Assembly: GCF_001487165.1 (NCBI RefSeq)
Contig: NZ_LN913006.1
Location: 3,276,045 to 3,340,044, forward strand
Direction: 5' to 3'
DNA: 64,000 nt
DNA from: Blautia massiliensis (ex Durand et al. 2017)
Lineage (GTDB): Bacteria > Bacillota > Clostridia > Lachnospirales > Lachnospiraceae
In this document: positions 25,879 through 55,795 of the stretch, piece by piece
Layout of the letters: each line of letters begins with the position of its first letter
Position numbering within the stretch: the stretch's first letter is position 1
Made by a program: the position numbers and the translations under genes
The notes under the pieces: generated by a model
What the model was told of the DNA's origin: nothing
The model's input: only the letters and a program-made list of their open reading frames with translations
Databases searched by the model: none

Positions 25879-26076
25879 ATGAGAGAAAAGAAAACCCATT
25901 TATATCTGGATAGCCAAGAAAGACGCCTGCTGTTACATAGCCTCATGGAATTAAAAAATCAGCTTATACAGCAAGGCAGATATACCGATTGTGTTGATGA
26001 ACTGATTTTTAAGGTGACAAGCGCACCATTAAAAAAGCTCAAAGTACAGTACGCTTGCCTACAAAATGCGGCTTGA
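25879..26076 (+). CDS. Small element-encoded protein, C-terminus altered by a deletion junction
   Basis: 65 residues starting MREKKTHLYLDSQERRLLLH, charged and helical (RLLLHSLMELKNQLIQQGR). This is a small protein I associate with Tn1549-type conjugative elements; function unknown. Its last eight or so residues (after KKLKVQY) run into sequence that in another frame encodes ParB-like protein, so the native end was probably lost at about 26050. AAAGGACGG precedes the ATG. Confidence 0.65.
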   Translation: MREKKTHLYLDSQERRLLLHSLMELKNQLIQQGRYTDCVDELIFKVTSAPLKKLKVQYACLQNAA

Positions 26077-26599
26077 AGCGATGAAGCGACAAGCAGGCAG
26101 ACCCCCGAAAGAAAATGCGTCGCCATTGGCGACTAATTTATCAAAGGGGCGTTCTGATACTGAATTAGGAGAACTTGTAGGAGAAAGCAAAGACCAGATA
26201 CGCAGATATATCCGCTTGACCGAGCTTGTTCCCGAAATCCTGCAAATGGTAGATGAAAGGCGGATTGCGTTCCGTCCTGCGGTGGAAATCTCTTATCTGC
26301 CCGAAGAACAGCAATACACCCTGCTTGAAGCTATGGAGTACAGCGACGCTACCCCGTCGCTTGCACAGGCTATCAAAATGAAGAAGTTTATGCAGGAGAA
26401 TAGGCTGACGGACGAGGTTATCCAGTCCATTATGGAGGAAGAAAAGCCAAACCAGAGGGAAAAGCCCGCTTTCCGTGATGAAAGGATAACAAAGCTCATT
26501 CCCAAATCCGTACCCAGAGGGCAGGAATCGGACTTTGTGGTGAAAGCGTTGGAGTTCTACAACCGCCATTTGCAGCGGAGCAAAGACCGTGAACGGTAG
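26066..26599 (+). pseudogene. C-terminal part of a ParB/Spo0J-like protein
   Basis: 177-codon open frame starting in the middle of a ParB fold: AYKMRLEAMKRQAGRPP, then the helix-turn-helix GELVGESKDQIRRYIRLTELVP, then a helical C-terminal region ending in FVVKALEFYNRHLQ. The N-terminal nuclease/CTPase-like domain (about 130 residues with the GxxRR-type motif) is missing, and the homologous frame extends a few codons upstream of the ATG into the preceding small gene. I read this as a 5' truncation by deletion. It has no ribosome site of its own and may not be translated. Confidence 0.75.
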
Positions 26600-38711: not shown

Positions 38712-39140
38712 ATGGCTTACAACAAAGCCAAAGAAGAACGGAAATGGCGGCTCTGGAAAGAAGCTGAAGAAAAGAAACTGCGGAGCTTGGGTGTCAGTGA
38801 GGATGCCATCGAACAGCTCCATACCCACGATTGGGCTATCTTCAATTCCGACAGGCGGTACTACGAAAAATTGCAGGATGTAGGTACATACCTTGAGGAA
38901 GTTGCAGAGGATACAACACAGCCCGAAACAAAGACGGTGGATGACTTCTTGGACAGCATTGAAAATCAAGAGCTTTATCAGTTCTTGATTAAGGTGGACA
39001 GGCTTACTCTGCAAACTGTTTTATTACAGCTTCAAGGCTTTTCCGTGCCAGAGATAGCAAAAATGCTTACGTTCTTCATGTACTCTTGTTGTGATTTCAT
39101 TGTTTTTTATCGTATAATATGGATGCTGGAGGTGGTTTGG
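38712..39140 (+). pseudogene. Sigma-70-like element regulator, 3' end lost
   Basis: The first about 119 codons encode a protein I associate with Tn1549-like elements (AYNKAKEERKWRLWKEAEEK, then FLDSIENQELYQFLIKVDRL and LLQLQGFSVPEIAKML), a small sigma-region-4-like helix-turn-helix regulator. After AKML (about 39069) the sequence turns hydrophobic and unrelated, with no stop before the response regulator at 39141, so the recognition helix is missing. A GGAGG site precedes the ATG, so a read-through fusion protein of 367 residues is formally possible. Confidence 0.75.
39089..39118 (+). promoter_or_regulatory. Putative promoter of the two-component/ABC module
   Basis: TTGTGA (39089-39094), 18-base spacer, perfect TATAAT (39113-39118), ending 23 bases before the response regulator ATG. 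It lies inside the hydrophobic segment that follows the sigma truncation, meaning that segment is really upstream DNA of the incoming module. Confidence 0.6.
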
Positions 39141-39815
39141 ATGAAATACAAGATTTTAGTTGTCGATGATGATAAAGAATTGGTGAAAATGCTTTGTAGT
39201 TATTTTAATATGAAACAATATGAAACCATTACGGCTACAGATGGAATGGAAGCATTAAATAAAATGAAAATGAAACCGGATATTATTTTGTTGGATATCA
39301 ATATGCCACGCATGGATGGGATTGAAGTATGTCGTCTGATACGCAGTAAAGTGTTATGTCCAATTTTATTTCTGACAGCAAGAGTTGACGAAGATGATAA
39401 AATTAATGGGTTGCTTTCAGGTGGGGATGATTATATTACGAAACCATTTAGTCTTCGGGAGTTGGAAGCAAGGATTGTCACAAACATAAAGAGAGAAGAA
39501 AGGCATCAACAAAAAACGGAATACCGTTTCATGGATGAAATGCTGATTGATTATTCTGAAAAAATAGTAGCTATAGCTGGACACAGGATGGAGTTCACAA
39601 AAATTGAATATCAGATTATTGAATTCTTATCCATGCATCCAGGGCAGGTGTTTGATAAAGAACGTATATATGCACAAGTCTGTGGATATGATGCGGAAGG
39701 GGACAGTAGAACGATAACGGAATTAGTACGGCGTATAAGGAAAAAAATAGCGGATTATTCAGAAAAAGAATACATAGAAACTGTATGGGGGATTGGATAC
39801 CGATGGAAAAAATAA
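39141..39815 (+). CDS. OmpR-family response regulator
   Basis: 224 residues. Receiver domain with acidic pocket (VVDDD), phosphoacceptor Asp in LLDINMPRMDG, Thr in FLTARV and Lys in YITKPF; C-terminal winged-helix with the Trp-containing EYIETVWGIGYRWKK end. ATG at 39141 has GGAGGTGG just upstream. Forms a pair with the sensor kinase that overlaps its 3' end and likely controls the ABC permease genes behind. Confidence 0.93.
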   Translation: MKYKILVVDDDKELVKMLCSYFNMKQYETITATDGMEALNKMKMKPDIILLDINMPRMDGIEVCRLIRSKVLCPILFLTARVDEDDKINGLLSGGDDYITKPFSLRELEARIVTNIKREERHQQKTEYRFMDEMLIDYSEKIVAIAGHRMEFTKIEYQIIEFLSMHPGQVFDKERIYAQVCGYDAEGDSRTITELVRRIRKKIADYSEKEYIETVWGIGYRWKK

Positions 39816-40981
39816 GAAACTTGTCACTGAAAAAAACAATTCTGCTTTATTTTGTGATCAGCTTAACGGCAGCATTTCTGTTATCTGGATTTACAGTTCA
39901 TTTTGCAGGAAATATGCAGAATAAAATATGGGAAAAATATATTGATTATGCAGATTATACGGACGTGTTTCAGCAATATGGAAAGAAATACGAGATTGAG
40001 ATATCAAGACCTAATCAATCGCAGATGAATCGTTTGGACTATCATCTTTCGGAAATGTGTGACTTTATGGAAACATATTCGGTACTGATTTTTTCGATTG
40101 TTGGGAGTGTTGTTGCGGTATTCTTTTTTTATAAAAATAAGTTAAAGACACCTCTACAGGAACTAAAAGATGCCTCACAAATGATTGCAGATAATGAACT
40201 GGATTTTCATGTGTCCTATGAAAATAAAGATGAGATGGGAACTTTGTGTAAAGAATTTGAAATGATGCGAAGTGATTTAGCAGATAACAACAGAAAGATG
40301 TGGCGAATGATTGATGACGAGAAGGCTTTGCGGAATGCAATTGCACATGATATACGTTCTCCACTTTCCATATTGCGTGGGTATCAGGAAATGCTCTTAG
40401 AGTTTGTTTCTGCCGAGAGTATAAAAACAGAGGATGTTATTGATATCTTACAAACAGGCATGTATCAGATTGACCGTATAGAGCATTTCACGGAAAACAT
40501 GAGAAAAATGTCCCATTTAGAACAGAGGGAACTGCAATGCTCAGAGATAGAGTTATCGGAACTGGCAAAAAAGATTGAGGCAGAAGCTGCCATGCTGTCC
40601 AAGAAGGAAAGTAAATTATGTAAGGTAGAAAGAGTGCAGGAACAAAACATTGTGAAAGTGGATGAGGAACTTGTCATGGAAGTGACAGACAACTTACTGG
40701 AAAATGCGGTTCGATATGCACAAAAAAGTATTGCTTTGCAGATAAAGAAAAAGGATGGTTTTCTTATAATTTCTGTTGAAGATGATGGAATAGGATTTGT
40801 GGATACTGAGGAAAAAGTAACAGAGCCATTTTATCATAAGAATCCACAAGATGATTTAAAGCATTTTGGCCTTGGTATGTATATTTCTCGTATTTTCTGT
40901 GAAAAGCATGGAGGAAATTTGAAAATATATAATGCCAGACAAGGCGGTGCTCATGTAGAAGCTCTTTTCAAAGCTGAATAA
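39803..40981 (+). CDS. Sensor histidine kinase
   Basis: 392 residues. Two membrane helices (about 13-33 and 90-110) flank a short extracellular loop of about 55 residues; a HAMP linker follows, then HisKA with the phosphoacceptor in AIAHDIRSPLSILRG and HATPase with NLLENAVRYA, DDGIGF and FGLGMYISRIF. Start inside the response-regulator gene (ATG at 39803) indicates coupling. The short sensor loop is typical of kinases sensing antimicrobial peptides together with an ABC transporter, though the ligand is unknown. Confidence 0.9.
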   Translation: MEKIRNLSLKKTILLYFVISLTAAFLLSGFTVHFAGNMQNKIWEKYIDYADYTDVFQQYGKKYEIEISRPNQSQMNRLDYHLSEMCDFMETYSVLIFSIVGSVVAVFFFYKNKLKTPLQELKDASQMIADNELDFHVSYENKDEMGTLCKEFEMMRSDLADNNRKMWRMIDDEKALRNAIAHDIRSPLSILRGYQEMLLEFVSAESIKTEDVIDILQTGMYQIDRIEHFTENMRKMSHLEQRELQCSEIELSELAKKIEAEAAMLSKKESKLCKVERVQEQNIVKVDEELVMEVTDNLLENAVRYAQKSIALQIKKKDGFLIISVEDDGIGFVDTEEKVTEPFYHKNPQDDLKHFGLGMYISRIFCEKHGGNLKIYNARQGGAHVEALFKAE

Positions 40982-41097
40982 AAATACTTTATAAGGCTGA
41001 AATCGCAAATAAAGTGGTTTTAGTCTTTTTTGTTGTGAATTTATTGAGAATTGATTTGTATGATGTTGTTAAAGAAATAAAGAAAGGAAGAGATACA

Positions 41098-42168
41098 ATG
41101 AAAACAATCATAAAAAGAAGTATACTTGATTATTTAAAGAACCCTGTTTTGTGGATTGGCTTGATTATTATAGTTGCCAGTATGTATCAATGTCTGTCAT
41201 CGTATTTGCAAATTCATTATATCAAACAGAATGAACAGATCACACAAAATGACGTAGCATTGGAAGATGCTGATGTCATGGATGGGTACATTCCCACATC
41301 TGATGATAAAGAAAGAAGAAGGGAGTGGGAAGATACGATCAAAGAGACGTTAATGGACACCTCCAAAAATGGTTTTGGATTTAGCAGGCAGGAAGCAGAT
41401 CATGTAATGAAAGAAATTCAGAATATGGATGTAAAGACTGCTTCTGAGTTTTTGGAATCCCAATATGGCTATTATAATGCAATATATGCTTATGAGGACC
41501 TTGAAATTCATAAGGGGACAGCAGAAGAAATCAATCATTATATCGAGCGGAAATTATCCGAACATTCTTTTTCCTGGTACTTTGCCAAAAAATTTACGGA
41601 TTTTGCAGGATTGCATATGGCCTTTTTTGCAACAGTCTTGCTATCATTTTTATTTATTCAGGATACACGAAAAAGTACCTATGAATTGTTACATACAAAG
41701 CCTGTTACGGCAGTCCAATATATATGTGGGAAAGTAATAAGCGGATTCATTAGTATGCTGGGAGTATTAGTGATTTTGAATGTTATATTCTTTATGCTGT
41801 GTTTGAAAACGTCTTTAGAATCGGGCTTTCCAGTAACACCAATTGATTTTTGCGTGAATTCTCTGATCTATATTATTCCGAATCTTTTGATGATATGTTG
41901 TGTCTATACAATTACAGCAGTAATATTTAAAAATCCGCTTCCGGCAGCACCAATCTTGTTTTTACACATTATATATTCAAATATGCTGACCATGAAGAAT
42001 GATATTTATTATATGAGACCGTTCTCTATTATGGTGCGATTCCCTGGCAGATTTTTTGAAACACATGTAGCCAAAATGTCAAACATAAATCAGATTATTC
42101 TTGTAATTTCATCAGTTATATTAGTATGTATTTCTGTTACAATCTGGAAAAGGAGGAGGGTTCATTGA
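41098..42168 (+). CDS. ABC-2-type membrane permease, large extracellular loop
   Basis: 356 residues. One N-terminal helix (NPVLWIGLIIIVASMYQ), then a hydrophilic region of about 150 residues, then five to six helices, ending RRR. The layout resembles ABC-2 permeases of the lantibiotic-immunity or multidrug type. ATG 41098 follows AAAGGAAGAG; the open frame from 41014 is longer but starts without a site. It overlaps the next permease by 4 bases. Confidence 0.8.
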   Translation: MKTIIKRSILDYLKNPVLWIGLIIIVASMYQCLSSYLQIHYIKQNEQITQNDVALEDADVMDGYIPTSDDKERRREWEDTIKETLMDTSKNGFGFSRQEADHVMKEIQNMDVKTASEFLESQYGYYNAIYAYEDLEIHKGTAEEINHYIERKLSEHSFSWYFAKKFTDFAGLHMAFFATVLLSFLFIQDTRKSTYELLHTKPVTAVQYICGKVISGFISMLGVLVILNVIFFMLCLKTSLESGFPVTPIDFCVNSLIYIIPNLLMICCVYTITAVIFKNPLPAAPILFLHIIYSNMLTMKNDIYYMRPFSIMVRFPGRFFETHVAKMSNINQIILVISSVILVCISVTIWKRRRVH

Positions 42169-42821
42169 AAACGGAACTAAAAAACTGCCTGTCGTTATAT
42201 AAGATTTTTTATTCATGTGCATTTATACTGATATTGTGTGCTATTCATCCGATTATATACTATGAAGAAATCGGTTCAGCGATTCAGTCGCCAATAGCAT
42301 TTTTAACAATTATTTTTTGTAGTGACACATATTTGATGGAAGTAAAAAGTAAGCGTGCCGATGTATTTCATTTGTATGATCAAAAAAAGCAGTTAAAAGT
42401 AATATCGCAGAGAGTGGGCGTTCAAATATTATATTTATTAATACTTTCCTGTGTTGGATATGTTTTGTTTTTCTGGCAAAAACCGGGCAGTGTAAACGAA
42501 GGCATTTCGGGTATTCAGATATTTCTTTTATATTTCATTGCAATGTTTGGAACTATCTGGCTTTGGAGTATATGCTCTGTGATTTTGTGTACATTGCTTC
42601 GAAATATGTGGGCAGGTATTGGATGTTTATTTGGAATTGTCATTGGACTTATATCAAAAGCGGGAAGTTCATTTTTCGGAAATCTGGGATTGTTTTCTTT
42701 CAGCTTTTGTGAACCTACTCAATTAATGTCCGAGAGTTGGATTTATGGAACGCTTGTGTCTTTTATAGCGGGGCTGTTTTTATTTGCAGTATTACCAATG
42801 ACTTTAAAGAAAAGAGGATAG
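42165..42821 (+). CDS. Second small ABC permease subunit
   Basis: 218-residue protein with six predicted helices and little else. TTG at 42165 is chosen because GGAGGAGGG lies just upstream and it overlaps the previous stop (TTGA). I do not recognise a named family; its place between permease and ATPase implies it is the partner membrane subunit. Confidence 0.75.
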   Translation: MKTELKNCLSLYKIFYSCAFILILCAIHPIIYYEEIGSAIQSPIAFLTIIFCSDTYLMEVKSKRADVFHLYDQKKQLKVISQRVGVQILYLLILSCVGYVLFFWQKPGSVNEGISGIQIFLLYFIAMFGTIWLWSICSVILCTLLRNMWAGIGCLFGIVIGLISKAGSSFFGNLGLFSFSFCEPTQLMSESWIYGTLVSFIAGLFLFAVLPMTLKKRG

Positions 42822-42824
42822 ATT

Positions 42825-43697
42825 ATGAGTATTAGAATAAATGATTTAACAGTTAGATTTAAAAATGGTGTAGTTGCAGTAAATAAGGCATCTCTTGAAA
42901 TACCTAAGGGAATTTACGGACTTTTGGGTGAGAATGGTGCCGGAAAAACCACTTTGATGAGGGTTCTTACAACTGTTTTAAAACAAACGGAAGGAATGGT
43001 TTCCCTTGATGGAATTCTGTATAACGAGGGAAATTATGAGAAAATACAGAAAAAGATTGGTTATCTTCCACAGGAAATCGACTTATATCCGAATCTTACG
43101 GTGAAAGAATGTCTTGTATATATGGGGGGACTGTCAGGAGTAGCCAGAAATGACCTCGAACAAAGAATTACCTATTATCTGGAAAAGACTTCTCTTACAG
43201 AGCATCAGAATAAAAAAATGCGGCAATTATCTGGTGGTATGAAGAGACGTGTCGGACTCATACAGGCACTTCTTAATAATCCGGATTTTTTGATTATTGA
43301 TGAACCTACCACCGGGTTAGATCCGGAAGAAAGAATCAGGATCCGCAATCTTTTGGTTGATTTTTCAAAGGATAGAACTGTGCTGTTTTCCACTCATGTA
43401 GTAGAAGATTTAGCAGCAACCTGTACACAGCTTGCCATTATGAAAAAGGGAAGTTTTTTATATTCTGGAAGCGTGAGTGGGTTGCTGGAAAATGCAAAGG
43501 GCTGTGTTTGGAATTGTACGGTACAAAATGCAGAAGAAGCCCGTTTGTTAGAAGCCAATTATTCTATATCATCTAAGCAGTATGTAGAAAATGGAATTCA
43601 TATGAAAGTATTAAGCAAAGGAAAGCCAAATGAGAATTGTGTCCTGGATAATGATATCACTTTGGAAGATGCATATATTTATTTGACGAATAGTTGA
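42825..43697 (+). CDS. ABC transporter ATP-binding protein
   Basis: 290 residues: Walker A GENGAGKTT, Q-loop YLPQEIDLYPNLTVKE, signature LSGGMKRRVGLIQALL, Walker B FLIIDEPTTGLDP, H-loop STHVVEDL, plus a C-terminal domain of about 80 residues. This is the form coupled to ABC-2 permeases. It starts 3 bases after the permease stop. Completes the regulator-kinase-permease-permease-ATPase module. Confidence 0.92.
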   Translation: MSIRINDLTVRFKNGVVAVNKASLEIPKGIYGLLGENGAGKTTLMRVLTTVLKQTEGMVSLDGILYNEGNYEKIQKKIGYLPQEIDLYPNLTVKECLVYMGGLSGVARNDLEQRITYYLEKTSLTEHQNKKMRQLSGGMKRRVGLIQALLNNPDFLIIDEPTTGLDPEERIRIRNLLVDFSKDRTVLFSTHVVEDLAATCTQLAIMKKGSFLYSGSVSGLLENAKGCVWNCTVQNAEEARLLEANYSISSKQYVENGIHMKVLSKGKPNENCVLDNDITLEDAYIYLTNS

Positions 43698-43734: not shown

Positions 43735-46047
43735 TTATTTTGTTAAAAGACCGGATAGTTTTTTTCCAATGCAAAATCCAATCTGTGGATATAACTCCTG
43801 AATTTCCTGATATTTTGCTTCAATCATTTCTGGTTCATCAGCCCAGATCTTTTCATATATTTTGAAAGCTCTTTTAAAATGTGTTTTGGCTTGCGGAAGA
43901 TTGGCAGTCATCAGATAAATGGTTCCAAGGGTTTCCTGTACTTTGGCATAATCCAGACAGTCATCGGAATGGTATTCCTTGATGATGCCGGATAATTTTT
44001 GCAATTCAGAGATGCCTCTTTCGGGTTCCTGCTGTTCTGTCAGGAACATTGCATAATTGGCAATCTGAGGTATGCTGTCATTTATATGAAGCAGGTTAAA
44101 TTGGTCAAGCAGTGAGATGCTTTTTTCCATGTGTTCTCTTGCAAGATCGGGATAACCGTTCATGCGGTAAAGTCCTCCAAGATTGGCATGAAGGTTAGAA
44201 ACGAGGCGAGCATTGTCAGCAGTGATATTTTCTATCTGGGCAAGTGCATCTTTTTCCAGTTTTATTGCTTTTTCAGGTTTGGTTTCAAGGGTTGCCTGAA
44301 AATCCAGTAATAACGCCCGGTCAGAGTTGGTGCCAATGCTTTTTGTCTTTAACAGCACCTTCAGTTCCTGAATGATTCCCTTCATACCTTTGTGATAGTT
44401 ATAGTTATCCATGTATGGAAATGCATTTTCCAGAAAAAGCAGATACTTTGGCATATCATCTTTTTCAATTAATTCTATGATATTTCCGATTGTTTGAAAT
44501 AGCTTTTTATAATAATCTACTTCCATTCCATGCATTAAACATATGTGCTGTAAAGAATCCAGAAACGTGTGACAACTACTTACAGATGGTTTTGTCTCTG
44601 AAAGGGTGATTTCCTGAATCATCGGATGCAGAGAGATAGTGCGACGTGTTGTTGTCTGAACGAAACCAGTCTCAATTAAATCGTTGATTTCATTTAGTGT
44701 GGACAGTTCCAGCCATTTGGCAAATATACGGGCAGAAATACCGGTGGAAGGAAGAAAGCACATATTACACATGATATCCTGCTGTTTAAGAGATAAAGTG
44801 TATAAAGAAAACAGCGTATGGATATGACTATAATAGGTGGCTTTGCTGCTTTGTCCATCTTTGATTATTTTAATTTTATCTTCGTTATGGAAAGATGCTT
44901 TTTCCACCTGAAGTCTTGTTAATAACTGGTCTGGAGTCGAGATTCCATTTTCCAGAAGTTTTGCTGCCAGTTCCACGGCAAAAGTATGAGAGTGAACAGT
45001 TTCGATGATCTTTTCAACTGTTGCACGGTATGCGTCTGCCTCTGAATAAAATGCTGATGCCAGCTGTAAGAGAGCGTTCATATCCTCTATTTCTTTTAAT
45101 GGCAGAGTACAGTATTCATCCAGTTTGCTTCTGGTTGTAAACAAAATCTGGCAGCGATATTTTAATACTACTGACAGAAAGCTGTCCTGTGTGGCAGTGA
45201 CATTAAAATTATCTATGATAAGCAGAGTATCAGATTTCAGGGAACGCAGGAAACGGTTATGTCTTTGAAACCGTTCCTGTTCAGTGCTTTCCGGAAGATC
45301 GTCAATAAAATCCATGTCAGTAATATCCTGATGAAGATTGCCGGTATATTCTACATAAAGGATATTGGTGTATTGCTTTATGTACCGCTTTGCGTAGGCT
45401 TTGGCAAGTTCACTTTTTCCAATTCCGGCGATTCCGCAAAGAAAAACATGACGGTTTTCCTCAAGCATGGTATATAATTCTTCCAGTTCTTTATCTCTTC
45501 CGATAAAATGACGGCATGGTTTCGGAACCTCACTGTCCATAATATAATCCAGCACAATGGGGGATAAAGCGCCTCCGGCGAGCAGCTTCTGATTTTTGGT
45601 ATTACGTTTGATGAATTGGCGTTCCATGCCAAAAGAAATCAGTTTTGCAAGAAACAGCAGTCTTGAACTGGCTGGTTTATATAAGGGAGTCAGATTTTTC
45701 TTTTTCGCATCTGAGATGCTGTCATCCTGAATGAATAAAGTGTAAATATCTTGTATAACCATATTACAGTCAGACATCAGTGGAAGAAGATTCTGGTGGA
45801 TGGTATGGGCTAATTTTTCCTGATTGGATGACTTGGAATAGTAAGCGGATATTTTAGGACTGATTTTAGCCTGACCAGTCATCCAGCGGCAAACCAGACC
45901 GTTGTCCATTGAAAAATCCTGATTTGTCGGATCATCCATAAAATCTTCAAATAATTCGTATAAAAAATCAGGCTGACTCATTTGATTACTTTCGCTGATA
46001 TGATTTTTTAAGCAAGTGCTAATAGAAGAAAAATCGCATCGATTCAA
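43735..46047 (-). CDS. STAND NTPase: NB-ARC-type ATPase with C-terminal TPR repeats
   Basis: 770 residues. N-terminal 170 residues include a possible DNA-binding helix pair (NGLVCRWMTGQAKISP) but no known effector. The STAND core begins at HFIGRDKELEEL (about 180) with P-loop GIAGIGKS (205-212) and Walker B TLLIIDNF (about 285), then a winged-helix stretch and, from about residue 590, TPR-like repeats (ANLGGLYRMNGYPDLAREHM, VQETLGTIYLMTANLPQAK). STAND proteins act as signal-triggered switches in regulation and phage defence. Which role applies here is open. Next to a TA pair and in a mobile context. Confidence 0.85.
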   Translation of the reverse strand: MNRCDFSSISTCLKNHISESNQMSQPDFLYELFEDFMDDPTNQDFSMDNGLVCRWMTGQAKISPKISAYYSKSSNQEKLAHTIHQNLLPLMSDCNMVIQDIYTLFIQDDSISDAKKKNLTPLYKPASSRLLFLAKLISFGMERQFIKRNTKNQKLLAGGALSPIVLDYIMDSEVPKPCRHFIGRDKELEELYTMLEENRHVFLCGIAGIGKSELAKAYAKRYIKQYTNILYVEYTGNLHQDITDMDFIDDLPESTEQERFQRHNRFLRSLKSDTLLIIDNFNVTATQDSFLSVVLKYRCQILFTTRSKLDEYCTLPLKEIEDMNALLQLASAFYSEADAYRATVEKIIETVHSHTFAVELAAKLLENGISTPDQLLTRLQVEKASFHNEDKIKIIKDGQSSKATYYSHIHTLFSLYTLSLKQQDIMCNMCFLPSTGISARIFAKWLELSTLNEINDLIETGFVQTTTRRTISLHPMIQEITLSETKPSVSSCHTFLDSLQHICLMHGMEVDYYKKLFQTIGNIIELIEKDDMPKYLLFLENAFPYMDNYNYHKGMKGIIQELKVLLKTKSIGTNSDRALLLDFQATLETKPEKAIKLEKDALAQIENITADNARLVSNLHANLGGLYRMNGYPDLAREHMEKSISLLDQFNLLHINDSIPQIANYAMFLTEQQEPERGISELQKLSGIIKEYHSDDCLDYAKVQETLGTIYLMTANLPQAKTHFKRAFKIYEKIWADEPEMIEAKYQEIQELYPQIGFCIGKKLSGLLTK

Positions 46048-46413: not shown

Positions 46414-47022
46414 TCAAATAAATTTTAAAAGCTGATGCAGAGTGTGTGGCTCATTATTCTGAGAAGCGGTAATACGAGTATCAAATGGCTTGAAATGATT
46501 CTGCGTATAAAAGCTCAGAAGAAATTCATTATCTTCGCATTCAAGAAACTCCATAACGCCACCTACGGAATATTTGAGACTGGATATGGTTTCCAGTGCA
46601 AATCCCAGTAGAATATTTCCAGGAATTCGTTTTTCCTTTGGAAGAGAATAGTTCTTTCCCAACTGGGCGATCAGGTAAGCTGCGGTAGTATAGGATTGTG
46701 TTTCTTCATCCAAAATACTGACACGGGACAGCTTTTTTGCCATTGTCTTGCTGATATTTGAAGCACGGACAGAGATGGGTTTTACTGTAAGTGAAAAATA
46801 ACCAACCAATGAAGCATCTTCAGCATCAAATACCAGATAAGTGATAGATTGATCTTTTTTGGTAAACTCAATCGCATTATGTAATAAAAAGTATTCCACA
46901 TCGAGATTTTTGGGACAAGAAAAATCGGAGAGTAAGTCGTAAAGACTTTCCTCTCCGATATATGTCGGTTCGTCTTTATCCAAATATGCCCGAATATTAA
47001 CGGTAAAATATTTATCAGACAT
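46414..47022 (-). CDS. GNAT acetyltransferase, probable type II toxin
   Basis: 202 residues with a GNAT fold: YLVFDAEDASLVGYFSLT strand pair, AAYLIAQLGKNYSLPKEKRIPG where the acetyl-CoA loop should be, GGVMEFLECEDNEFLLSFYTQNHF at the C-terminal part. This order matches TacT/AtaT-like toxins that acetylate aminoacyl-tRNA. It overlaps the upstream antitoxin-like gene by 8 bases, the usual antitoxin-toxin order for this class. The exact target is unknown; an ordinary acetyltransferase cannot be excluded. Confidence 0.75.
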   Translation of the reverse strand: MSDKYFTVNIRAYLDKDEPTYIGEESLYDLLSDFSCPKNLDVEYFLLHNAIEFTKKDQSITYLVFDAEDASLVGYFSLTVKPISVRASNISKTMAKKLSRVSILDEETQSYTTAAYLIAQLGKNYSLPKEKRIPGNILLGFALETISSLKYSVGGVMEFLECEDNEFLLSFYTQNHFKPFDTRITASQNNEPHTLHQLLKFI

Positions 47023-47200
47023 GTTTTTTCTTCCTTTTTGACATTAAAGCTAAGATTTCCTGTGGGTTCGTTAACTGACGTCCGGGAAGTGTCTGCTTTG
47101 GTGTGCGGTCACGGTCGGCTTCGTCAATTGCTGCGACAAAACGCTTTATGCTATTTGGATTGGATACGACAAAATTATGAGTAATACTTGAAGTAGCCAT
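47015..47200 (-). CDS. Probable antitoxin of the GNAT toxin
   Basis: 61 residues starting MATSSITHNFVVSNPNSIKR, with a basic C-terminus (MSKRKKKHV). The segment NFVVSNPNSIKRFVAAIDEADRD could form a ribbon or helix contact. ATG at 47200 has GGAGGTG upstream; the open frame back to 47359 is not supported. I do not place it in a named antitoxin family; the call rests on size and on overlap with the toxin-like gene. Confidence 0.65.
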   Translation of the reverse strand: MATSSITHNFVVSNPNSIKRFVAAIDEADRDRTPKQTLPGRQLTNPQEILALMSKRKKKHV

Positions 47201-47546
47201 ACTAACACCTCCTCTTTTTTGGCTTTTTTGTGTATTTATAGTATATGCAATGTGTGATAAAAACACAATATCGAAAACAAAAATAATTTCTAAATAATTT
47301 TCAAGCCGGACATTTATTAGACGCTTCCGGTAAGCGAACAATATTTTCGAGCCAATCATTTATAAGTCGCCAATGGTGGGCGGGCAATATTTTGATAACA
47401 GAAATGCTCTGTATCTAACTTAATTATACGATTGGCGAAGAAATGCGTCAATACGGAAAATAAGTATTGAAAATAGTTGGAACAAGTACTAAAATTAAGT
47501 TGGGACATTGAATGGAAGTTATGTTACGAGATAATAAGAATTGTAG
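47201..47546. other. 346-base divergent gap between TA pair and primase-helicase gene
   Basis: AT-rich. CGCCAAT (47368-47374) and ATTGGCG (47431-47437) form an inverted repeat with a 56-base spacing, and CAATATTTT occurs twice (about 47339 and 47385). These could be operator sites for the antitoxin or for the element genes. No gene is evident. Confidence 0.35.
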
Positions 47547-50528
47547 GTGGAAGGTTTGAACATAGAAGCATATGATGCTGATTCATTGAGAAAAATGGTT
47601 AGGTTGCTTGAATATGAGAACAAGATATTAAAAGATAAATTGAAGAAAGCAGGCATTTCATATGAAGAGGTGAATCCTTTTGAAGAAAAAATAGAAAGTG
47701 CAGAAGAATATGACCTGGATCAAGGGAGTCGTATTGTAAATCCGCCATATATTACAGAGAAAATGGCAATACGTTTCTTTTCGATGTTTTGGGGAAGAGA
47801 AGATGTATATGCCAGACGGGGAAAGAACGGGGGTTATTTTCCACAATGTGCAAATCGTTGGAATGACCGGCTTTGTCCTAAACAACGTAAAGAGAAGGTA
47901 TTTTGTGATGAATGTGAAAATACCAAATGGATAAGTCTGGATGTAAAAAAAATAATTGCTCATTTGTTAGGCACAAAAGAAGATGGATCAGATGTAATAG
48001 GTGTATATCCTTTACTGCCAAATGGAACATGCAGATTTATTGTATTTGATTTTGATAATCATGAAAAAGGAGCAGAGGTTACGGACTTTGCAAATACGGA
48101 TAATGAGTGGCATAAAGAAGTGGATGCGCTTAGAAAAATGTGTGAGCTTAATGGTATCAGACCTTTAGTTGAGAGATCTCGATCTGGAAAAGGTGCCCAT
48201 GTATGGATTTTCTTTAAAAAGGCAATATCTGCGGCAACAGCAAGGAATTTTGGATTTCTCCTGTTAGACAAGGGTTCAACTTCCATCAATCTGAAATCTT
48301 TTCATTATTATGATAGAATGTATCCTTCGCAGGATGTGGCAAGCAGCATAGGTAATTTGATTGCATTGCCATTACAGGGGCAGGCACTTAAAAATGGAAA
48401 TAGTGCTTTTGTAGATGAAAATTGGAATGCATATCCTGATCAATGGGATGCTCTTTTCAATAAAACAAAAAAGCTGGGAATAGAAGATGTTGAACAATGC
48501 ATGGCAAAATGGCAGGGAGAATTAGCAGAAGTCAGAGGAACGCTTACTAATATTGAGAAGAATGTCAGACCGAAACCATGGAAGAAGAAATGTGAGTTTT
48601 GTAAGTCAGATGTTGTGGGCAAGCTTCATATGGTATTGGGCAATGGAGTTTATATTGATACTCTGAATCTTATGCCAAGAATACAAAATCAGGTCCGTAG
48701 TTTGGCGGCATTTGATAATCCGGAATTTTACAAAAATAAAAGGCTGGGATATTCTAATTATTATAATTTCAGTACTGTATATTTAGGTAAGGATATAGAT
48801 GGATATATACAGATTCCGAGAGGACTGCGGGAAAATATTATACAGGAATGTGAAAAAGCAGGCATTTCAGTTGATGTTTCAGATCAAAGAGAAACAGGAC
48901 AACCTATCAGAGTATCTTTTAAAGGTGATTTGCGAATGCAACAGGAATTAGCAGCAGAAAAATTATTATCACATTCAGATGGGGTTTTGAGTGCGGCAAC
49001 TGCATTTGGAAAGACTGTAGTATGTAGTTACCTTATTGCAGAGCGAAAAGTAAATACGCTCATTTTGCTGCAAAATAAAGATTTGCTTAATCAGTGGGTT
49101 GATGAATTGAATCATTTCTTAGAGATAAGAGAAGAACCACCGGAATATGAAACAAAAACAGGAAGAAAGAAAAAAAGAAATAGTGTGATAGGCGTTTTGC
49201 ACGGAAATAAAAATACATTGACAGGGATTATAGATGTTGCAATGGTTGGTTCAATGTACAGCAGAGGAAAATTTAATGAACGGATTAATTCTTACGGAAT
49301 GGTAATTATGGATGAATGTCATCACGCAGCTTCTAACACATCTATGGAATTATTGCAGAAAATAAATGCAAAATACGTATATGGTGTTTCTGCTACACCT
49401 AAACGTGGTGACAGTCTTGATCGGATCATCTATATGCTGTTAGGACCTTTGAGACATAGATTTACTGCATTGGAGAGGGCTAAGGAACAGGGGATTGGAC
49501 ATTATTTTGTCCCAAGATACACAAGAGTAGTTGATACTGCAGAAAGCAAGGATAATATTAATAAAGCATATAATTTGATTAGTACCAGTAAGGTGCGCAA
49601 TGAAATGATCATAGATGATGTTATAACTTGTGTTGCAAGAAAACAAACTCCTGTAATTTTGACAAGATTTAAGGAACATGCAAAATTTTTACATGATGCC
49701 TTAAAGAAAAAAGCAGATCATGTATTCCTTCTGTATGGGGATAATTCGGATAAGGAAAATGCTGAAATAAGAGTAAAATTAAAGCAGATACCTGAAAATG
49801 AATCGCTTATTTTGGTGGCAACTGGTCAGAAAATAGGAGAAGGGTTTGATTTCCCAAGACTGGATGTATTAATGCTTGCAGCACCTGTATCTTTTGAAGG
49901 ACGCCTGGAACAGTATGTAGGTAGATTAAACAGAGATTATGTCGGAAAAGAAGCCGTTTATGTGTATGATTATATCGATTCGCATGTGCGTTATTTTGAT
50001 AAAATGTATGCAAAAAGATTGAGAACATATAGGAAAATGGGATTTTCAATCTGGACGCAAGAGTTGCAACCTAAACAAATAATAAATGCAATATTTGATT
50101 CTGTAAATTATACCGAAAAATTCGAGCAAGATATTGTAGAGTCAGAAAAAATGGTGGTAATTTCCAGTCCGGATATCAGACAGGATAAAATTGACAGATT
50201 TTTATTACTAGTCAAGAAGAGACAGGAAGTAGGGGTAAAGGTCACAGTTATTACAACAGATCCGGAAGATATTACTTACGGAAAGTCAGATGTATGTTAT
50301 GAATTAATCAGAGCAATGCAATTGGTAGGAATAAATGTGATAACAAGAACAGAAGTAGAAGAATATTTTGCCGTTATTGATGATGAAATAGTATGGCATG
50401 GTGGGATGAATCTACTTGGAAAAGCTGATGTCTGGGATAACTTAATGCGTATCAGAAATTCACAAGTTGCAACGGAATTGTTGGAAATTGCTTTGGGATG
50501 TTCTGAGGAGAGGAGGAAAAGTGAATAA
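47547..50528 (+). CDS. AEP primase - SF2 helicase - PLD-like fusion protein
   Basis: 993 residues, three modules. An N-terminal coiled coil (1-36) is followed by an archaeo-eukaryotic-type primase of the TOTE-associated kind: four cysteines near 101-123, catalytic FDFDNH (about 167-172) and SRSGKGAH (211-218). An SF2 helicase follows: ATAFGKT (about 484), MDECHHAAS (about 587), GVSATPKRGD, GEGFDFPRLD and QYVGRLNRDY. The last 120 residues look phospholipase-D-like, with YFAVIDDEIVWHGGMNLLG but no HxK motif. GTG at 47547 or TTG at 47556 could start it. It overlaps the serine recombinase by 8 bases. Its job, defence or element replication, is not known. Confidence 0.85.
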   Translation: MEGLNIEAYDADSLRKMVRLLEYENKILKDKLKKAGISYEEVNPFEEKIESAEEYDLDQGSRIVNPPYITEKMAIRFFSMFWGREDVYARRGKNGGYFPQCANRWNDRLCPKQRKEKVFCDECENTKWISLDVKKIIAHLLGTKEDGSDVIGVYPLLPNGTCRFIVFDFDNHEKGAEVTDFANTDNEWHKEVDALRKMCELNGIRPLVERSRSGKGAHVWIFFKKAISAATARNFGFLLLDKGSTSINLKSFHYYDRMYPSQDVASSIGNLIALPLQGQALKNGNSAFVDENWNAYPDQWDALFNKTKKLGIEDVEQCMAKWQGELAEVRGTLTNIEKNVRPKPWKKKCEFCKSDVVGKLHMVLGNGVYIDTLNLMPRIQNQVRSLAAFDNPEFYKNKRLGYSNYYNFSTVYLGKDIDGYIQIPRGLRENIIQECEKAGISVDVSDQRETGQPIRVSFKGDLRMQQELAAEKLLSHSDGVLSAATAFGKTVVCSYLIAERKVNTLILLQNKDLLNQWVDELNHFLEIREEPPEYETKTGRKKKRNSVIGVLHGNKNTLTGIIDVAMVGSMYSRGKFNERINSYGMVIMDECHHAASNTSMELLQKINAKYVYGVSATPKRGDSLDRIIYMLLGPLRHRFTALERAKEQGIGHYFVPRYTRVVDTAESKDNINKAYNLISTSKVRNEMIIDDVITCVARKQTPVILTRFKEHAKFLHDALKKKADHVFLLYGDNSDKENAEIRVKLKQIPENESLILVATGQKIGEGFDFPRLDVLMLAAPVSFEGRLEQYVGRLNRDYVGKEAVYVYDYIDSHVRYFDKMYAKRLRTYRKMGFSIWTQELQPKQIINAIFDSVNYTEKFEQDIVESEKMVVISSPDIRQDKIDRFLLLVKKRQEVGVKVTVITTDPEDITYGKSDVCYELIRAMQLVGINVITRTEVEEYFAVIDDEIVWHGGMNLLGKADVWDNLMRIRNSQVATELLEIALGCSEERRKSE

Positions 50529-52272
50529 AAAGATAAAATGTGATATCTATACCAGAGTATCCACAACCATGCAGGTAGATGGCTACAGTCTGGATGCTCA
50601 GAAAGAAAAACTCGAGAGATATGCGGAATTTCAGAACATGGAAATCGTAAATGAGTATTCCGATGAAGGTAAGTCTGGAAAAAGCGTAGAGGGCAGACCG
50701 GAATTTCAGAGAATGTTGGATAATATTGAGAATGGAACAGATGAGGTGCAGTTTGTACTGGTGTTCAAGCTTTCCAGATTTGGTCGTAATGCGGCAGATG
50801 TTTTAAATTCTTTGCAGAGGATGCAGGATTTTGGAGTGAATCTGATCTGTGTAGAAGATGGAATTGACAGCTCAAAAGATAGTGGAAAGCTGATGATTTC
50901 TGTTCTGTCTGCGGTGGCAGAGATCGAACGAGAGAATATCCTTGTTCAGACAATGGAAGGACGTAAGCAGAAAGCCAGGGAAGGAAAATGGAATGGTGGA
51001 TTTGCTCCGTATGGTTATGAATTAGTAAATGGAGAATTGCAGATTGCAGAGGACGAAGCAGAGATTATTCGTCTGATCTATGACAAATTTATTCATACCA
51101 ATATGGGAATCTCTGCGATTGCTGCATGGCTGAACCAGCATGGATACAAAAAGAAAAAACGACAGAATAATACACTGGACGCATTTGCCGCTTCATTTAT
51201 AAAGGGCGTTCTGGATAATCCGGTATACTGTGGAAAGCTGGCTTATGGACGAAGGAAAAACGAGAAAGTTTCTGGTACAAGAAATGAATACCGCATTGTA
51301 AAGCAGGAAAATTATATGCTGCACGATGGTATCCATGAAGGGATTGTTTCAGAAACAGACTGGGAGCTGGCACATCAAAAACGGGAAAAAACAGGTGTGA
51401 AATATGAAAAGACACATAGTTTCGATCATGAGCATATTTTATCCGGAATATTGAGATGCCCATTATGTGGAAGTGGTATGTATGGAAACGTGAACCGAAA
51501 GAAAAAGAAAGACGGAACCTTATATAAGGATTATTTCTATTATGCCTGCAAACATCGTCGCCTGGTAGATGGTCATAAATGTGGATATCGTAAACAATGG
51601 AGCGAGGAGAAGATTAACAATGCAGTGGAAGAAGTTATTCGGAAGCTGGTGAAGAATCCGAAATTTGAAGAAGCAATTCTGAATAAAATCGGTTCAAGAA
51701 TAGATACAGAAGAAATAGAAAAAGAGATTGAAAGACTGGAAAAACAGCACAGGCAACTGACCGGAGCAAAAGCAAGACTTGGACAGCAGATGGATAGTCT
51801 GGATATCATGGATAAATTTTATGAAAAGAAATATCAGGATATGGAGACACGCTTATATCGTCTATATGATGAAATTGAAGGCGTGGAGAATAGTATAGAA
51901 GAAGTTAAGAATCGCCTGCTGAATATCCGGCAACAGAAAATATCAGAAGAAAACGTCTATCAATTTCTTTTATATTTTGATAAACTATATGATAAGTTCA
52001 CCGACCTGGAGAAAAAAGAATTTCTTAATAGCTTTGTAGAACAGGTGGACATTTACGAGCAGGAGCAGCCAGATGGCAGATTCCTGAAGCACATAAAGTT
52101 CCGTTTTCCGGTGTATTTTGGAGACAGGGAAATACAGGAACTTTGTTGGGACAACGAAAGTACCGTTGAGACCGTGTGCCTCTTGAGCAACCGAAAACCA
52201 GATACTACGGTAAAACTCAGCGTGGATATGGATGATTACTACCGTATTATAAATGGTAAAGATGCAGAATAA
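50521..52272 (+). CDS. Large serine recombinase/integrase
   Basis: 583 residues. Catalytic domain: CDIYTRVSTTMQ with the nucleophilic serine, KLSRFGRNAADV with active-site arginine, and AEIERENI. Then the recombinase domain (GYELVNGELQIAEDEAEII), a zinc ribbon (CPLCGSGMYG), a long coiled coil (about 410-480) and a C-terminal end containing VETVCLLSNRKPD. GTG at 50521 is within the helicase 3' end after AGGAGG, so both are coupled. It is the best candidate for the integrase that moves this island. Confidence 0.92.
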   Translation: MNKKIKCDIYTRVSTTMQVDGYSLDAQKEKLERYAEFQNMEIVNEYSDEGKSGKSVEGRPEFQRMLDNIENGTDEVQFVLVFKLSRFGRNAADVLNSLQRMQDFGVNLICVEDGIDSSKDSGKLMISVLSAVAEIERENILVQTMEGRKQKAREGKWNGGFAPYGYELVNGELQIAEDEAEIIRLIYDKFIHTNMGISAIAAWLNQHGYKKKKRQNNTLDAFAASFIKGVLDNPVYCGKLAYGRRKNEKVSGTRNEYRIVKQENYMLHDGIHEGIVSETDWELAHQKREKTGVKYEKTHSFDHEHILSGILRCPLCGSGMYGNVNRKKKKDGTLYKDYFYYACKHRRLVDGHKCGYRKQWSEEKINNAVEEVIRKLVKNPKFEEAILNKIGSRIDTEEIEKEIERLEKQHRQLTGAKARLGQQMDSLDIMDKFYEKKYQDMETRLYRLYDEIEGVENSIEEVKNRLLNIRQQKISEENVYQFLLYFDKLYDKFTDLEKKEFLNSFVEQVDIYEQEQPDGRFLKHIKFRFPVYFGDREIQELCWDNESTVETVCLLSNRKPDTTVKLSVDMDDYYRIINGKDAE

Positions 52273-52359: not shown

Positions 52360-52896
52360 ATGGACAAAGAAAAAGCAGATATGATTATTTATACGACAGA
52401 GGATGGTCTGACGAAAGTTGAAACTACTTTTGATGGTGATACCGTCTGGTTGTCCATTGATCAGATGGCAGAATTGTTTCAGAGAGATAAATCAACCATT
52501 TCCAGACATATTAAAAATATATTTATAGAAGGTGAATTACAGCGGGATTCAGTTGTTGCAAAATTTGCAACAACTGCTTCTGATGGAAAAGTTTACAATG
52601 TAGACTATTACAATCTTGATGTTATTATTTCTGTTGGCTATCGTGTAAAATCAAAACAGGGAACACAGTTCAGAATTTGGGCAACTGGGATTTTAAAAGA
52701 ATACATGAGAAAAGGTTTTGCTTTAGATGATGATCGTTTGAAAAATCTAGGTGGCGGTGGATATTTCAAGGAATTGTTGGAGAGAATCCGTGATATTCGT
52801 GCATCCGAGAAAGTGTTTTATCCAATGCGTCGTAAAACTCCTTGCTTCCGCTATGGGGATATAAGACGCGTCCATCGAATTTATGCAAGTAATTGA
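52360..52896 (+). pseudogene. RhuM family gene, truncated by the IS605 element
   Basis: The first 154 codons encode a RhuM-type protein (TEDGLTKVETTFDGDTVWLS, FQRDKSTISRHIKN with its DNA-binding look, NVDYYNLDVIISVGYRVKS, then RDIRASEKVFY). RhuM proteins are about 330-350 residues, so the C-terminal half is missing. The break is exactly at a TTTAT (52817-52821), where the IS200/IS605 left end begins; the last 25 codons are IS sequence. The remainder is not found after the IS right end. GGAGG precedes the ATG. Confidence 0.82.
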
Positions 52897-52949
52897 AGAT
52901 GGACAAAATAGTAATTGTATTAACTAATAAACCATAGTATAATACAAAT

Positions 52950-54617: not shown

Positions 54618-54626
54618 AAACATTGC

Positions 54627-54655
54627 TTTACAAGAAGAATAAAAAAGCATATAAT
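54627..54655 (+). promoter_or_regulatory. Promoter of the ROK regulator gene
   Basis: TTTACA (54627-54632), 17-base spacer, perfect TATAAT (54650-54655), ten bases beyond the IS right end. Transcription would begin near 54662, after the TTG at 54623, which therefore cannot be the start codon from this promoter. Confidence 0.65.
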
Positions 54656-54691
54656 TCTTTTATAATATATTTAATAAAAGAGGGTAAGAAA

Positions 54692-55795
54692 ACGGAAAAT
54701 AAAGATAAAAAAAATATAACAAGAAAAAGAATAATTAATTATGTGCTGAACAATCATGTTACATCCAAGGCGGGAATCGCAAAAGATTTAAATTTGAGTA
54801 TGCCGACTGTGTTAGCAAATGTGAATGACTTGTTAGAAAAAATGGTGTTGGAAGAAACTGGGGAATATGCTTCGACCGGTGGAAGAAAGGCAAAAAGTAT
54901 AGGGATTAATAAGTCATACTGTCATGCAATGGGAATTTTGATTACAGCGAATCATATAGAAATGGTATTAGTAAATCTTGGAGATGAGATTATAAAAAAA
55001 GATCGCATCCGTTTAAAATTTACGGCAGAATTATCCTATTGTACAGAAGTGGCACAAAAGGTCAAAACTTTTCTTGAAGGCGAATTAGCGAAGGATACGC
55101 TACTTGGGATTGGAGTGGCGATTCCGGGAATTATTGATCAGAAAGAACGGATCGTTTTAAAATCCCATGCTTTAGGTATAGAGAATTATAGTCTGCGCTT
55201 TTTAGAGCAGGCTTTGGAAATTCCAGTATATTTTGAAAACGATGCTAATGCTGCAATGCTTGCAGAAAAAAAGCAAAAGTATCCAAATGCGATATATCTG
55301 TCTTTGAACCACACCTTAGGAGGCGCATTCTGCATAGATGGAAAGCTGTTTCGAGGGCAGAACCAGAAAGCAGGTGAGTTTGGTCACATGATACTCGTTC
55401 CCGGTGGAAGAAAGTGTTATTGTGGTAAAGCAGGATGTGCAGATGCATATTGTGCTGCAAGTGTACTGACACAAGATAACAGGCAGTCACTGGATGCATT
55501 TATGGAAAAAATTGAAAGTGGTGATGAAAAAATTTTGCAGACATGGAATGAGTATCTGGATCATCTTGCTGTTTTGATATCAAATCTGCGGATGGCATAT
55601 GATATGGATATCATACTAGGAGGTGATGTGGGAGGTGTATTGTCAGATTATATGATACCACTGGGAGAAAAAGTGATGGCATATAATGGCTTTGAGCATG
55701 ATGTTTCATACTTAAAAAATTGTTCGTATAAGAAAGAAGCGTCGGCTGTTGGAGCCGCGAAATACTTTTTTACAAAACATATGGCAGAATTGTAA
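54692..55795 (+). CDS. ROK-family transcriptional regulator, apparent ACG start
   Basis: N-terminal winged helix (ITRKRIINYVLNNHVTSKAG, LNLSMPTVLANVNDLLE) then a ROK sugar-kinase-like domain with GVAIPGII, ENDANAAM and the zinc motif CYCGKAGCADAYC. The DNA-binding helix needs translation from near 54692, yet no ATG, GTG or TTG is in place: AAGAGGG (54678-54684) is 7 bases before an in-frame ACG. The start codon has probably mutated or ACG is used inefficiently. The next in-frame start (GTG 54741) would cut the helix-turn-helix. Likely regulator of the sugar genes downstream. Confidence 0.8.
   Translation, partial: TENKDKKNITRKRIINYVLNNHVTSKAGIAKDLNLSMPTVLANVNDLLEKMVLEETGEYASTGGRKAKSIGINKSYCHAMGILITANHIEMVLVNLGDEIIKKDRIRLKFTAELSYCTEVAQKVKTFLEGELAKDTLLGIGVAIPGIIDQKERIVLKSHALGIENYSLRFLEQALEIPVYFENDANAAMLAEKKQKYPNAIYLSLNHTLGGAFCIDGKLFRGQNQKAGEFGHMILVPGGRKCYCGKAGCADAYCAASVLTQDNRQSLDAFMEKIESGDEKILQTWNEYLDHLAVLISNLRMAYDMDIILGGDVGGVLSDYMIPLGEKVMAYNGFEHDVSYLKNCSYKKEASAVGAAKYFFTKHMAEL

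Follow-up and report, generated by a model that had tools for sequence, protein, structure and literature searches.

A 64,000-nucleotide stretch of the genome of Blautia massiliensis (ex Durand et al. 2017) (contig NZ_LN913006.1 of assembly GCF_001487165.1, forward-strand positions 3,276,045 to 3,340,044; hereafter, the window) encodes a protein that combines a primase, a helicase and a PLD-like domain (hereafter, the primase-helicase), immediately followed by a large serine recombinase (LSR). Our analysis suggests that the primase-helicase is a passenger that can be exchanged and probably acts against phages, lodged in the leader slot of a rumA-type LSR element, a reading to which we assign a probability of roughly 0.6. 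The novelty lies in the swappable slot, which extends from the LSR leader to the LSR start codon and of which alleles with and without the gene occur naturally; the protein family and the site are both of known kinds. Among the options raised in a preliminary description of this DNA, we favor the one in which the recombinase element carries a defence module, given the swappable slot and the defence-model matches of the genes that replace the primase-helicase; the defence role itself is one that we infer.

Exchangeability is apparent from natural elements that lack the primase-helicase. In four of these (L168, L186, L167 and the first LSR of L109), the LSR is 98-99% identical to that of the window at the protein level and 95-97% at the DNA level, and homology to the window stops at 47520-47530 and resumes at 50523, the final base of the window LSR start codon. 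The 12-22 nt between the breakpoints, together with the preceding bases, read GAGGAA(G/A) plus ATG, that is, the LSR's own ribosome-binding site and start codon. The leader is retained in these copies, with the promoter-like site at 47467-47495 kept or nearly kept ahead of the LSR, and two of them (L168 and L186) also retain the TPR, 202-aa and upstream cargo genes. Judging from this homology gap, the primase-helicase gene is a cassette that fits cleanly between leader and LSR start. Four loci with LSRs of 89-94% identity (L108, L169, L170 and L171) likewise lack the gene.

The preliminary description had proposed a joint task for the primase and the recombinase, such as DNA synthesis at the integration junction or replication of an excised circle. 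Given the primase-free elements with 98-99% identical LSRs and the survey counts below, these proposals, the second of them in the form of an obligatory replication, are not supported. In particular, it is highly improbable that the primase-helicase is a recombination partner of the LSR, serving at the att junction as a directionality factor or in junction repair. The overlapping LSR start in the window lineage would fit such a partnership, but primase-free LSRs keep the attR-type break at the same place, near 52172-52178 (L167, L168 and L109), or the same junction followed by an rlmD-type tail (L108 and L124, the latter from the L186 locus), and unrelated genes occupy the same slot.

The survey of the adjacent pair, set beforehand as a test, was run from the side of each gene, and the preliminary interpretation is partly supported. 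We inspected the best 80 of 157 primase-helicase loci, one genome per species, and left out of the counts seven in which the sequence is cut just past the gene (L030, L040, L046, L065, L067, L076 and L091). An LSR lies downstream in 13 of the 73 assessable loci; these amount to 13 of the 16 with at least 84% primase-helicase identity and none of the 57 below this level. LSR-like matches on either side were found in 19 of the 80 loci, that is, in the 13 pairs and six others. Two of the latter (L022 and L074) have a 75% identical LSR, 1.2 and 4.0 kb upstream of the primase-helicase, with a YhcG-like gene (by eye) in the slot of that LSR; in three (L042, L086 and L096), the match is 22-25% identical and more than 5 kb off; and L078, which belongs to the set below 84%, has a 23% identical LSR directly upstream of a truncated primase-helicase. 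In a tree of 61 proteins, from which 20 of the 80 were excluded because their lengths fall outside 880-1150 aa, the LSR-linked ones belong to a single clade of 16, five of which are unlinked.

The reverse search, for the LSR in 397 genomes of the family, yielded 59 places at E<=1e-150, with at most three candidates scored per genome, so that copies may be missed; three pairs of genome handles (G185/G064, G034/G066 and G042/G067) appear to denote the same genome. Eighteen of the places show at least 64% identity, of which 16 were readable (G438 and G294 are cut by contig ends), and 24 of the 41 more distant ones were read. Upstream of the 16 close LSRs, there is a primase-helicase in five (the window, L106, L172, where only the last 405 aa remain, L173 and L178), no gene in six (L167-L171 and L175) and a different gene in five (L174, L176, L177, L179, in which the LSR is interrupted by a stop, and L180). 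None of the 24 distant LSRs has the primase-helicase upstream.

As the preliminary description stated, the end of the primase-helicase gene overlaps the LSR start behind an AGGAGG; the stop codon ends at 50528 and the likely LSR start is the GTG at 50521, resulting in an 8-nt overlap. This tight adjacency is not due to chance because all 13 LSR-adjacent pairs among the 80 loci are similarly spaced (about -15 to +2, by tblastn), and translational coupling of the two genes appears likely. The 8-nt overlap as such is not conserved: in L021, L023, L024, L026 and L178, an ATG is located a few nt past the stop.

The genes that take the place of the primase-helicase are suggestive of a defence role without proving it. 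All ten replacement genes that we tested, which include all five from the sample of 16 LSRs, match PADLOC defence models: YhcG/PDC-S02 (494 bits), KilA-N/PDC-S22 (388), Old (73), two RhuM/PDC-S05 (524 and 537), two ORF6N/PDC-S05 (346 and 372), two Bro-N/PDC-S13 (401 and 402) and a protein kinase (mad6, 192, and also PD-T4-6). The names of the YhcG, KilA-N, kinase, one Bro-N and one ORF6N gene come from Pfam, and the rest from inspection by eye or the PADLOC family. The PADLOC comparison did not include the genes of L199, L200, L022 and L074, which resemble the tested ones by eye, that of L195, second LSRs and short open reading frames (ORFs).

The neighbourhoods of primase-helicase relatives located away from LSRs point in the same direction. 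Proteins encoded nearby (at least 150 aa, within 1.2 kb; n=105) match 231 PADLOC models, compared to 27 for distal ones (at least 5.5 kb away; n=86), at E<=1e-10. The near set comprises 105 of 122 proteins, 17 having been removed by hand (large ones, L048 duplicates, one LSR and some short ones), whereas all 86 distal proteins were kept. Among the first 25 PADLOC matches of the near set are AbiEi, AbiEii, PDC-S04, SoFic, AriA and PDC-S02, and its Pfam domains include AlbA_2 (8), AbiEii (5), Fic (3), DUF3800 (3), YhcG (2), Abi_2 (2) and NACHT (2).

The domain architecture given in the preliminary description, with a TOTE-type primase, a superfamily 2 (SF2) helicase and a PLD-like domain in one protein, was borne out by Pfam. 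The archaeo-eukaryotic primase (AEP) domain, AEP-TOTE (PF22548), covers aa 76-317 (E 4.6e-75; 252.6 bits vs a curated cut-off of 27) and is followed by ResIII (aa 461-620, 3.9e-18; DEAD, 1.5e-10) and Helicase_C (aa 693-796), the latter at 22.4 bits, slightly below its cut-off of 23.5. PLDc_2 (aa 863-979) reaches 19.7 bits in the whole protein and 24.4 bits when the C-terminus is scanned alone, both below the cut-off of 27, whereas the C-termini of three relatives, scanned alone, exceed it (31.7, 47.8 and 51.4 bits). Because the relatives pass the cut-off that the window protein misses, the PLD-like assignment is right and the window copy is degenerate. The active-site motif of PLD nucleases is HxK(x4)D(x6)GSxN; the window protein instead has ExY..D and GGMN, in agreement with the earlier observation that GGMN is kept and HxK lost. 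The motif decays across the family, from HxH..D with GS in 14 rows of the deepest branch to GG combined with ExR (9) or ExC (6) in the other 15 proteins of the clade that includes the window protein. By contrast, the AEP residues D168, D170 and H172 (FDFDxH), S213 and H218, which we take to be catalytic, are invariant in 61 of 61 proteins, as are K489, D589, E590, R793 and R796 of the helicase. The dN/dS ratios against six relatives (84-98% identity) are 0.04-0.13 overall and 0.11-0.22 for the PLD part; dS reaches saturation against the two most distant relatives, and a seventh, L033, gave no overall value. From these low ratios, PLD part included, the entire protein is maintained by selection. 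The nearest solved AEP is the CRISPR-associated Prim-Pol (E 2.1e-08 by sequence and 3.5e-14 by profile), which is also the top fold match (Foldseek E 4.9e-12), and the sequence searches place the helicase nearest to XPB, UvsW, RadD and SauUSI, with SauUSI (7clg) matching aa 478-814.

Several observations weigh against an exchangeable defence passenger. The pair is kept in two lineages, with LSRs 94-99% and about 72-75% identical to that of the window, which is some sign that linkage is of benefit. Not every slot holds a defence-like gene: in L195, it contains an amidase-like gene (by eye), 315 bp ahead of the LSR, and in L194, L197 and L201, a second LSR. PDC families are candidates that were identified partly through neighbourhood, and the models for the kinase, Old and RhuM are broad, which makes the defence argument partly circular. 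The contrast between near and distal genes counts redundant models rather than proteins, the distal set also matches SoFic, JetB and mads models, and the highly varied near set also includes GGDEF (3), integrase core (3), ABC (2) and transposase genes. PADLOC has no full-length model for the primase-helicase and matches it at the domain level, the best match being the PrimPol model over aa 70-389 (189.5 bits). The model of the whole protein structure is weak (mean pLDDT 59.1, pTM 0.39, residues 448-644 below 50); therefore, the fold search was used for the AEP match only.

Alternatively, the primase-helicase could be a general DNA-repair or translesion enzyme that travels as fitness cargo and plays no part in immunity. 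AEP enzymes frequently act in lesion bypass, the helicase is XPB/RadD-like, and proteins 34-36% identical over about aa 41-835 are found on rhizobial and other plasmids. We consider such a role unlikely because the distribution is patchy, 12 of 64 genomes of the same genus, that of the window included, having an AEP-TOTE match, and because both the near neighbours and the replacement genes are rich in defence models.

The LSR contains the Resolvase (2.1e-39), Recombinase (2.2e-21) and Zn_ribbon_recom (8.5e-12) domains of Pfam and, as the comparison of sites shows, is the integrase of an element that targets the 3' end of an rlmD/rumA-type gene; the LSR gene swaps its own 3' end with that of the target. 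The target gene, a uracil-5 methyltransferase gene named rlmD/rumA by analogy with PMC4701971, from the part of that paper available to us, contains HVETV at 25413, and its end past about 25441 differs from that of element-free relatives; G016 and G044 match it only up to 25441. The candidate core GTTGAGAC occurs in this gene and in the LSR gene as a direct repeat of 8 bp only, in the same codon frame, and directly past the second copy, LSR genes at other sites diverge. The fused tail beyond it (VCLLSNRKPDTTVKLSVDMDDYYR...) or a close variant terminates long RlmD-type ORFs in other genomes of the same genus, among them those of the loci L119 (a confirmed PF05958 uracil-5 methyltransferase), L121, L125-L130 and L132. 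In 20 of 21 distinct LSR endings, the junction reads ...(S/T)TVE(T/S/C)... or a close variant (TVGT in L026, MLET in L074), followed by varied tails; the LSR of L020 is broken. Empty insertion sites, which the preliminary description had suggested looking for, were found in two same-genus genomes: the rlmD-ROK distance is 359 bp in G016 and 368 bp in G044, compared to 2735 bp in G015 and 29.2 kb in the window. The element-free sites in G016 and G044 bear short tails of their own, so that they are perhaps scars. In Fusicatenibacter, the copy lies between the same kinds of boundary, namely, an rlmD-type gene that has HVETV at L206:14889 and, in L106, the end of the LSR.

Position 39064, the left limit of the 99% block common to the window and Fusicatenibacter, was considered as the element end and rejected: it marks only the limit of the shared block, and attL-like sequence lies in rlmD at 25416 and at L206:14889. 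The stretch 25416-52172 and the Fusicatenibacter interval may each be one element or a composite. No convincing right-arm partner emerged when the left end was sought through inverted-repeat symmetry of attP in the window and six loci, generic direct repeats gave only chance-like families, and the left limit of L110 (window 46331) has no att-like sequence.

The resemblance to staphylococcal cassette chromosome (SCC) elements raises the possibility of a replication module, in which the primase-helicase copies the excised circle and so prevents its loss until it re-integrates or is transferred; such a task has been proposed for the Cch2/CCPol operon that adjoins the Ccr recombinase genes in SCCmec. 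In SCCmec pattern 2, according to the available part of PMC7581432, a primase-helicase operon is located directly 5' of the serine recombinase, with a putative origin between them; CcrB and CcrC are the top NCBIfam models for the window LSR (204 and 166 bits), and the close gene spacing and purifying selection would also fit. However, both scores are far below the cut-offs of 900, and CcrA reaches 120 bits against 700, so that the LSR is none of these three. Moreover, the same part of that paper reports a Cch or Cch2 operon in all identified SCC elements, in contrast to the primase-free elements with 98-99% identical LSRs; no origin can lie between the two genes in the window because they overlap; all 57 assessable relatives below 84% identity lack a downstream LSR; and the helicase is XPB/UvsW/RadD-like. 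In the Fusicatenibacter interval, the genes for a MobA/MobL relaxase (E 2.7e-89), RepA_N, an IstB/DnaC-like ATPase and an actin-like (ParM-like) protein mean that the primase-helicase is not the sole replication-type gene, with the above caveat on the unity of this interval; among the window island genes tested, a ParB-HTH gene was found. Altogether, we regard a replication module as improbable.

Table 1. Features of the window (position 1 is its first nucleotide)
Feature	Position	Strand	Remarks
rlmD/rumA-type uracil-5 methyltransferase gene, integration target	23985..25763	+	PF05958, 63.8 bits (cut-off 23)
Candidate attL core GTTGAGAC in rlmD-type gene	25416..25423	+	
ParB-HTH domain protein, island gene	26066..26599	+	PF17762, E 2.5e-07
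Cargo: response regulator, histidine kinase and ABC transporter genes	39064..43697	+	kinase and transporter named by eye
770-aa NTPase + TPR protein	43735..46047	-	stays with the LSR in several primase-helicase-free copies
202-aa protein, divergent from the operon	46414..47022	-	acetyltransferase-like by eye; no Pfam match
114-aa protein overlapping the 202-aa gene	47015..47359	-	antitoxin-like layout by eye; no Pfam match
Promoter-like TTGAAA-17-TAAAAT	47467..47495	+	consensus match only
Primase-helicase-PLD-like gene, 993 aa, present/absent cassette	47547..50528	+	GTG start; ORF, Pfam and comparison
LSR ribosome-binding site AGGAGG, within the primase-helicase 3' end	50511..50516	+	
LSR	50521..52272	+	codons past about 52172 derive from the target tail
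Candidate attR core GTTGAGAC in LSR gene	52165..52172	+	copies at other sites diverge directly past the core
rlmD-type 3' tail fused to LSR (VCLLSNRKPDTTVKLSVDMDDYYR...)	52173..52272	+	
ROK-family regulator gene, right hotspot flank	54623..55795	+	PF00480, 141.5 bits

Several further features of the window and related loci deserve mention. Upstream of the operon, a 165-aa gene replaces the divergent pair of the 202-aa and 114-aa genes at L167:3387-3884 and L109:3329-3826, so that the other side of the promoter swaps too; the L167 copy has a weak ToxN match (21 bits vs a cut-off of 25), and that of L109 is alike by eye. A 367-aa ORF (38712-39815) starts outside the block shared with Fusicatenibacter and enters the response regulator across 39064, and its first part is probably not a true gene. 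Within the island, the ParB-HTH gene is accompanied by a gene for a 1063-aa protein, surface-type by eye (26787-29978). Directly past attR (52360-54469), a 178-aa RhuM-family gene, an IS200-type Y1 transposase gene and IS605 OrfB/TnpB-like genes perhaps mark the start of a second, decayed element. In L194, L197 and L201, the tandem LSR genes are separated by -4 to 1 nt, recalling ccrA/ccrB pairs, and a single contig (G066:C31, loci L108 and L109) carries three LSR copies of the family within about 40 kb, one with and two without the primase-helicase, an array that resembles composite SCC arrays.

A phage origin of the primase-helicase was considered and rejected. No relative was confirmed in IMG/VR, where exact peptide patterns only were used; of the 1712 GenBank phage records that match, 1711 do so at less than 60% identity, and 9 of 10 among those listed span the helicase part and its flanks only. 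A 9.75-kb unannotated "Bacteriophage sp." record from human faeces (MT836552.1; L207:9122-9751) ends within a primase-helicase gene 82% identical to that of the window. The plasmid-borne AEP-helicases mentioned above (H11-H25), which extend over about aa 41-835 or 870, are nearly all annotated merely as DEAD/DEAH helicases. A literature search, which was not exhaustive, yielded no description of a primase-helicase-PLD defence protein, of an LSR defence slot or of the pair.

These findings are compatible with the following scenario for the proposed defence passenger. The LSR operon would start near the promoter-like site, and the slot between the leader and the LSR start codon is, as comparison of the elements shows, either empty or occupied by one gene that varies by element; in the window, it is filled by the primase-helicase, which overlaps, and may be coupled to, the LSR start. 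The primase-helicase would be a self-contained effector against phages or mobile elements: its XPB/RadD-like motor might load on abnormal DNA, for example, replication intermediates, where the AEP domain would synthesize or elongate short primers while the degenerate PLD domain holds DNA or a partner. It would move with the LSR as cargo, dispensable for integration. A more far-reaching and rather doubtful proposition is that the LSR leader is a dedicated exchange site that takes one immune gene at a time under the LSR promoter and ribosome traffic, such that excision or entry would be turned on at the same time as immunity, and that the AEP-XPB-inactive-PLD protein represents a new immune effector encoded by a single gene, one that primes DNA synthesis on invading DNA. 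Either way, the attractive guess of a primase-recombinase machine gives way to a testable one, a single-gene-swapping slot in an LSR operon. The ten replacement genes tested so far all match known or candidate defence families, testing is simple thanks to natural alleles that have or lack the primase-helicase in closely similar DNA, and the slot offers a route to collect new single-gene defence candidates.

Among known systems, the integration module of the window is known in kind because its arrangement is that of the streptococcal rumA-targeting integrative and conjugative elements (ICEs). In these ICEs, according to the part of PMC4701971 available to us, a single serine integrase directs insertion into rumA, and attR lies within its gene; as in the window, one repeat lies in the 23S rRNA uracil methyltransferase gene and the other in the integrase gene, and the 3' ends are exchanged. 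The window element differs in its Lachnospiraceae host, in the same reading frame at both sites as opposed to the frame change in the streptococcal elements, and in the exchangeable gene slot ahead of the integrase, which that part of PMC4701971 does not describe. With its LSR, short repeat pair and element-free site, it fits among the rumA/rlmD-targeting serine-integrase elements.

Both SCC elements and the window element target an rRNA methyltransferase gene, which is rlmH in the case of SCC. As in SCCmec pattern 2 (CCPol-MP-Cch2 with CcrC), genes for a primase and a helicase are located directly ahead of the LSR, but, as far as the available part of PMC7581432 goes, the enzymes are unrelated (an A-family polymerase and a Rep-like helicase in SCCmec, an AEP and an XPB-like SF2 helicase in the window), the SCCmec origin is intergenic whereas the window genes overlap, and the replication operon is present in every SCC element whereas the primase-helicase is optional, being absent from 11 of the 16 close LSRs.

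The primase-helicase belongs to the AEP-TOTE protein family, being above the Pfam cut-off with the active-site residues kept, and its locus shares with the TOTE conflict systems (TPR, OB, TBP, Effector; PMC12458937, in the part available) the PF22548 domain and a nearby TPR protein. The TPR gene, however, is divergent and also accompanies LSR copies without the primase. TBP (PF00352) has no match in the genome, with the same search positive in 4 of 14 control genomes, all archaea; therefore, the locus is not classed as a TOTE system. The window protein also lacks a full-length match to any anti-phage system described in PADLOC. The nearest AEP by both sequence and fold, the CRISPR-associated Prim-Pol (CAPP; PDB 7nqd/7nqf), differs from that of the window, which is fused to a helicase and a PLD-like domain. 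A combination of an SF2 helicase with a PLD domain is characteristic of SauUSI-type defence enzymes, SauUSI itself having a PLD domain, and of the Druantia-type arrangement as given in the available part of PMC12458937. Compared to both types, the window protein has lost the PLD active-site residues and gained an AEP domain.

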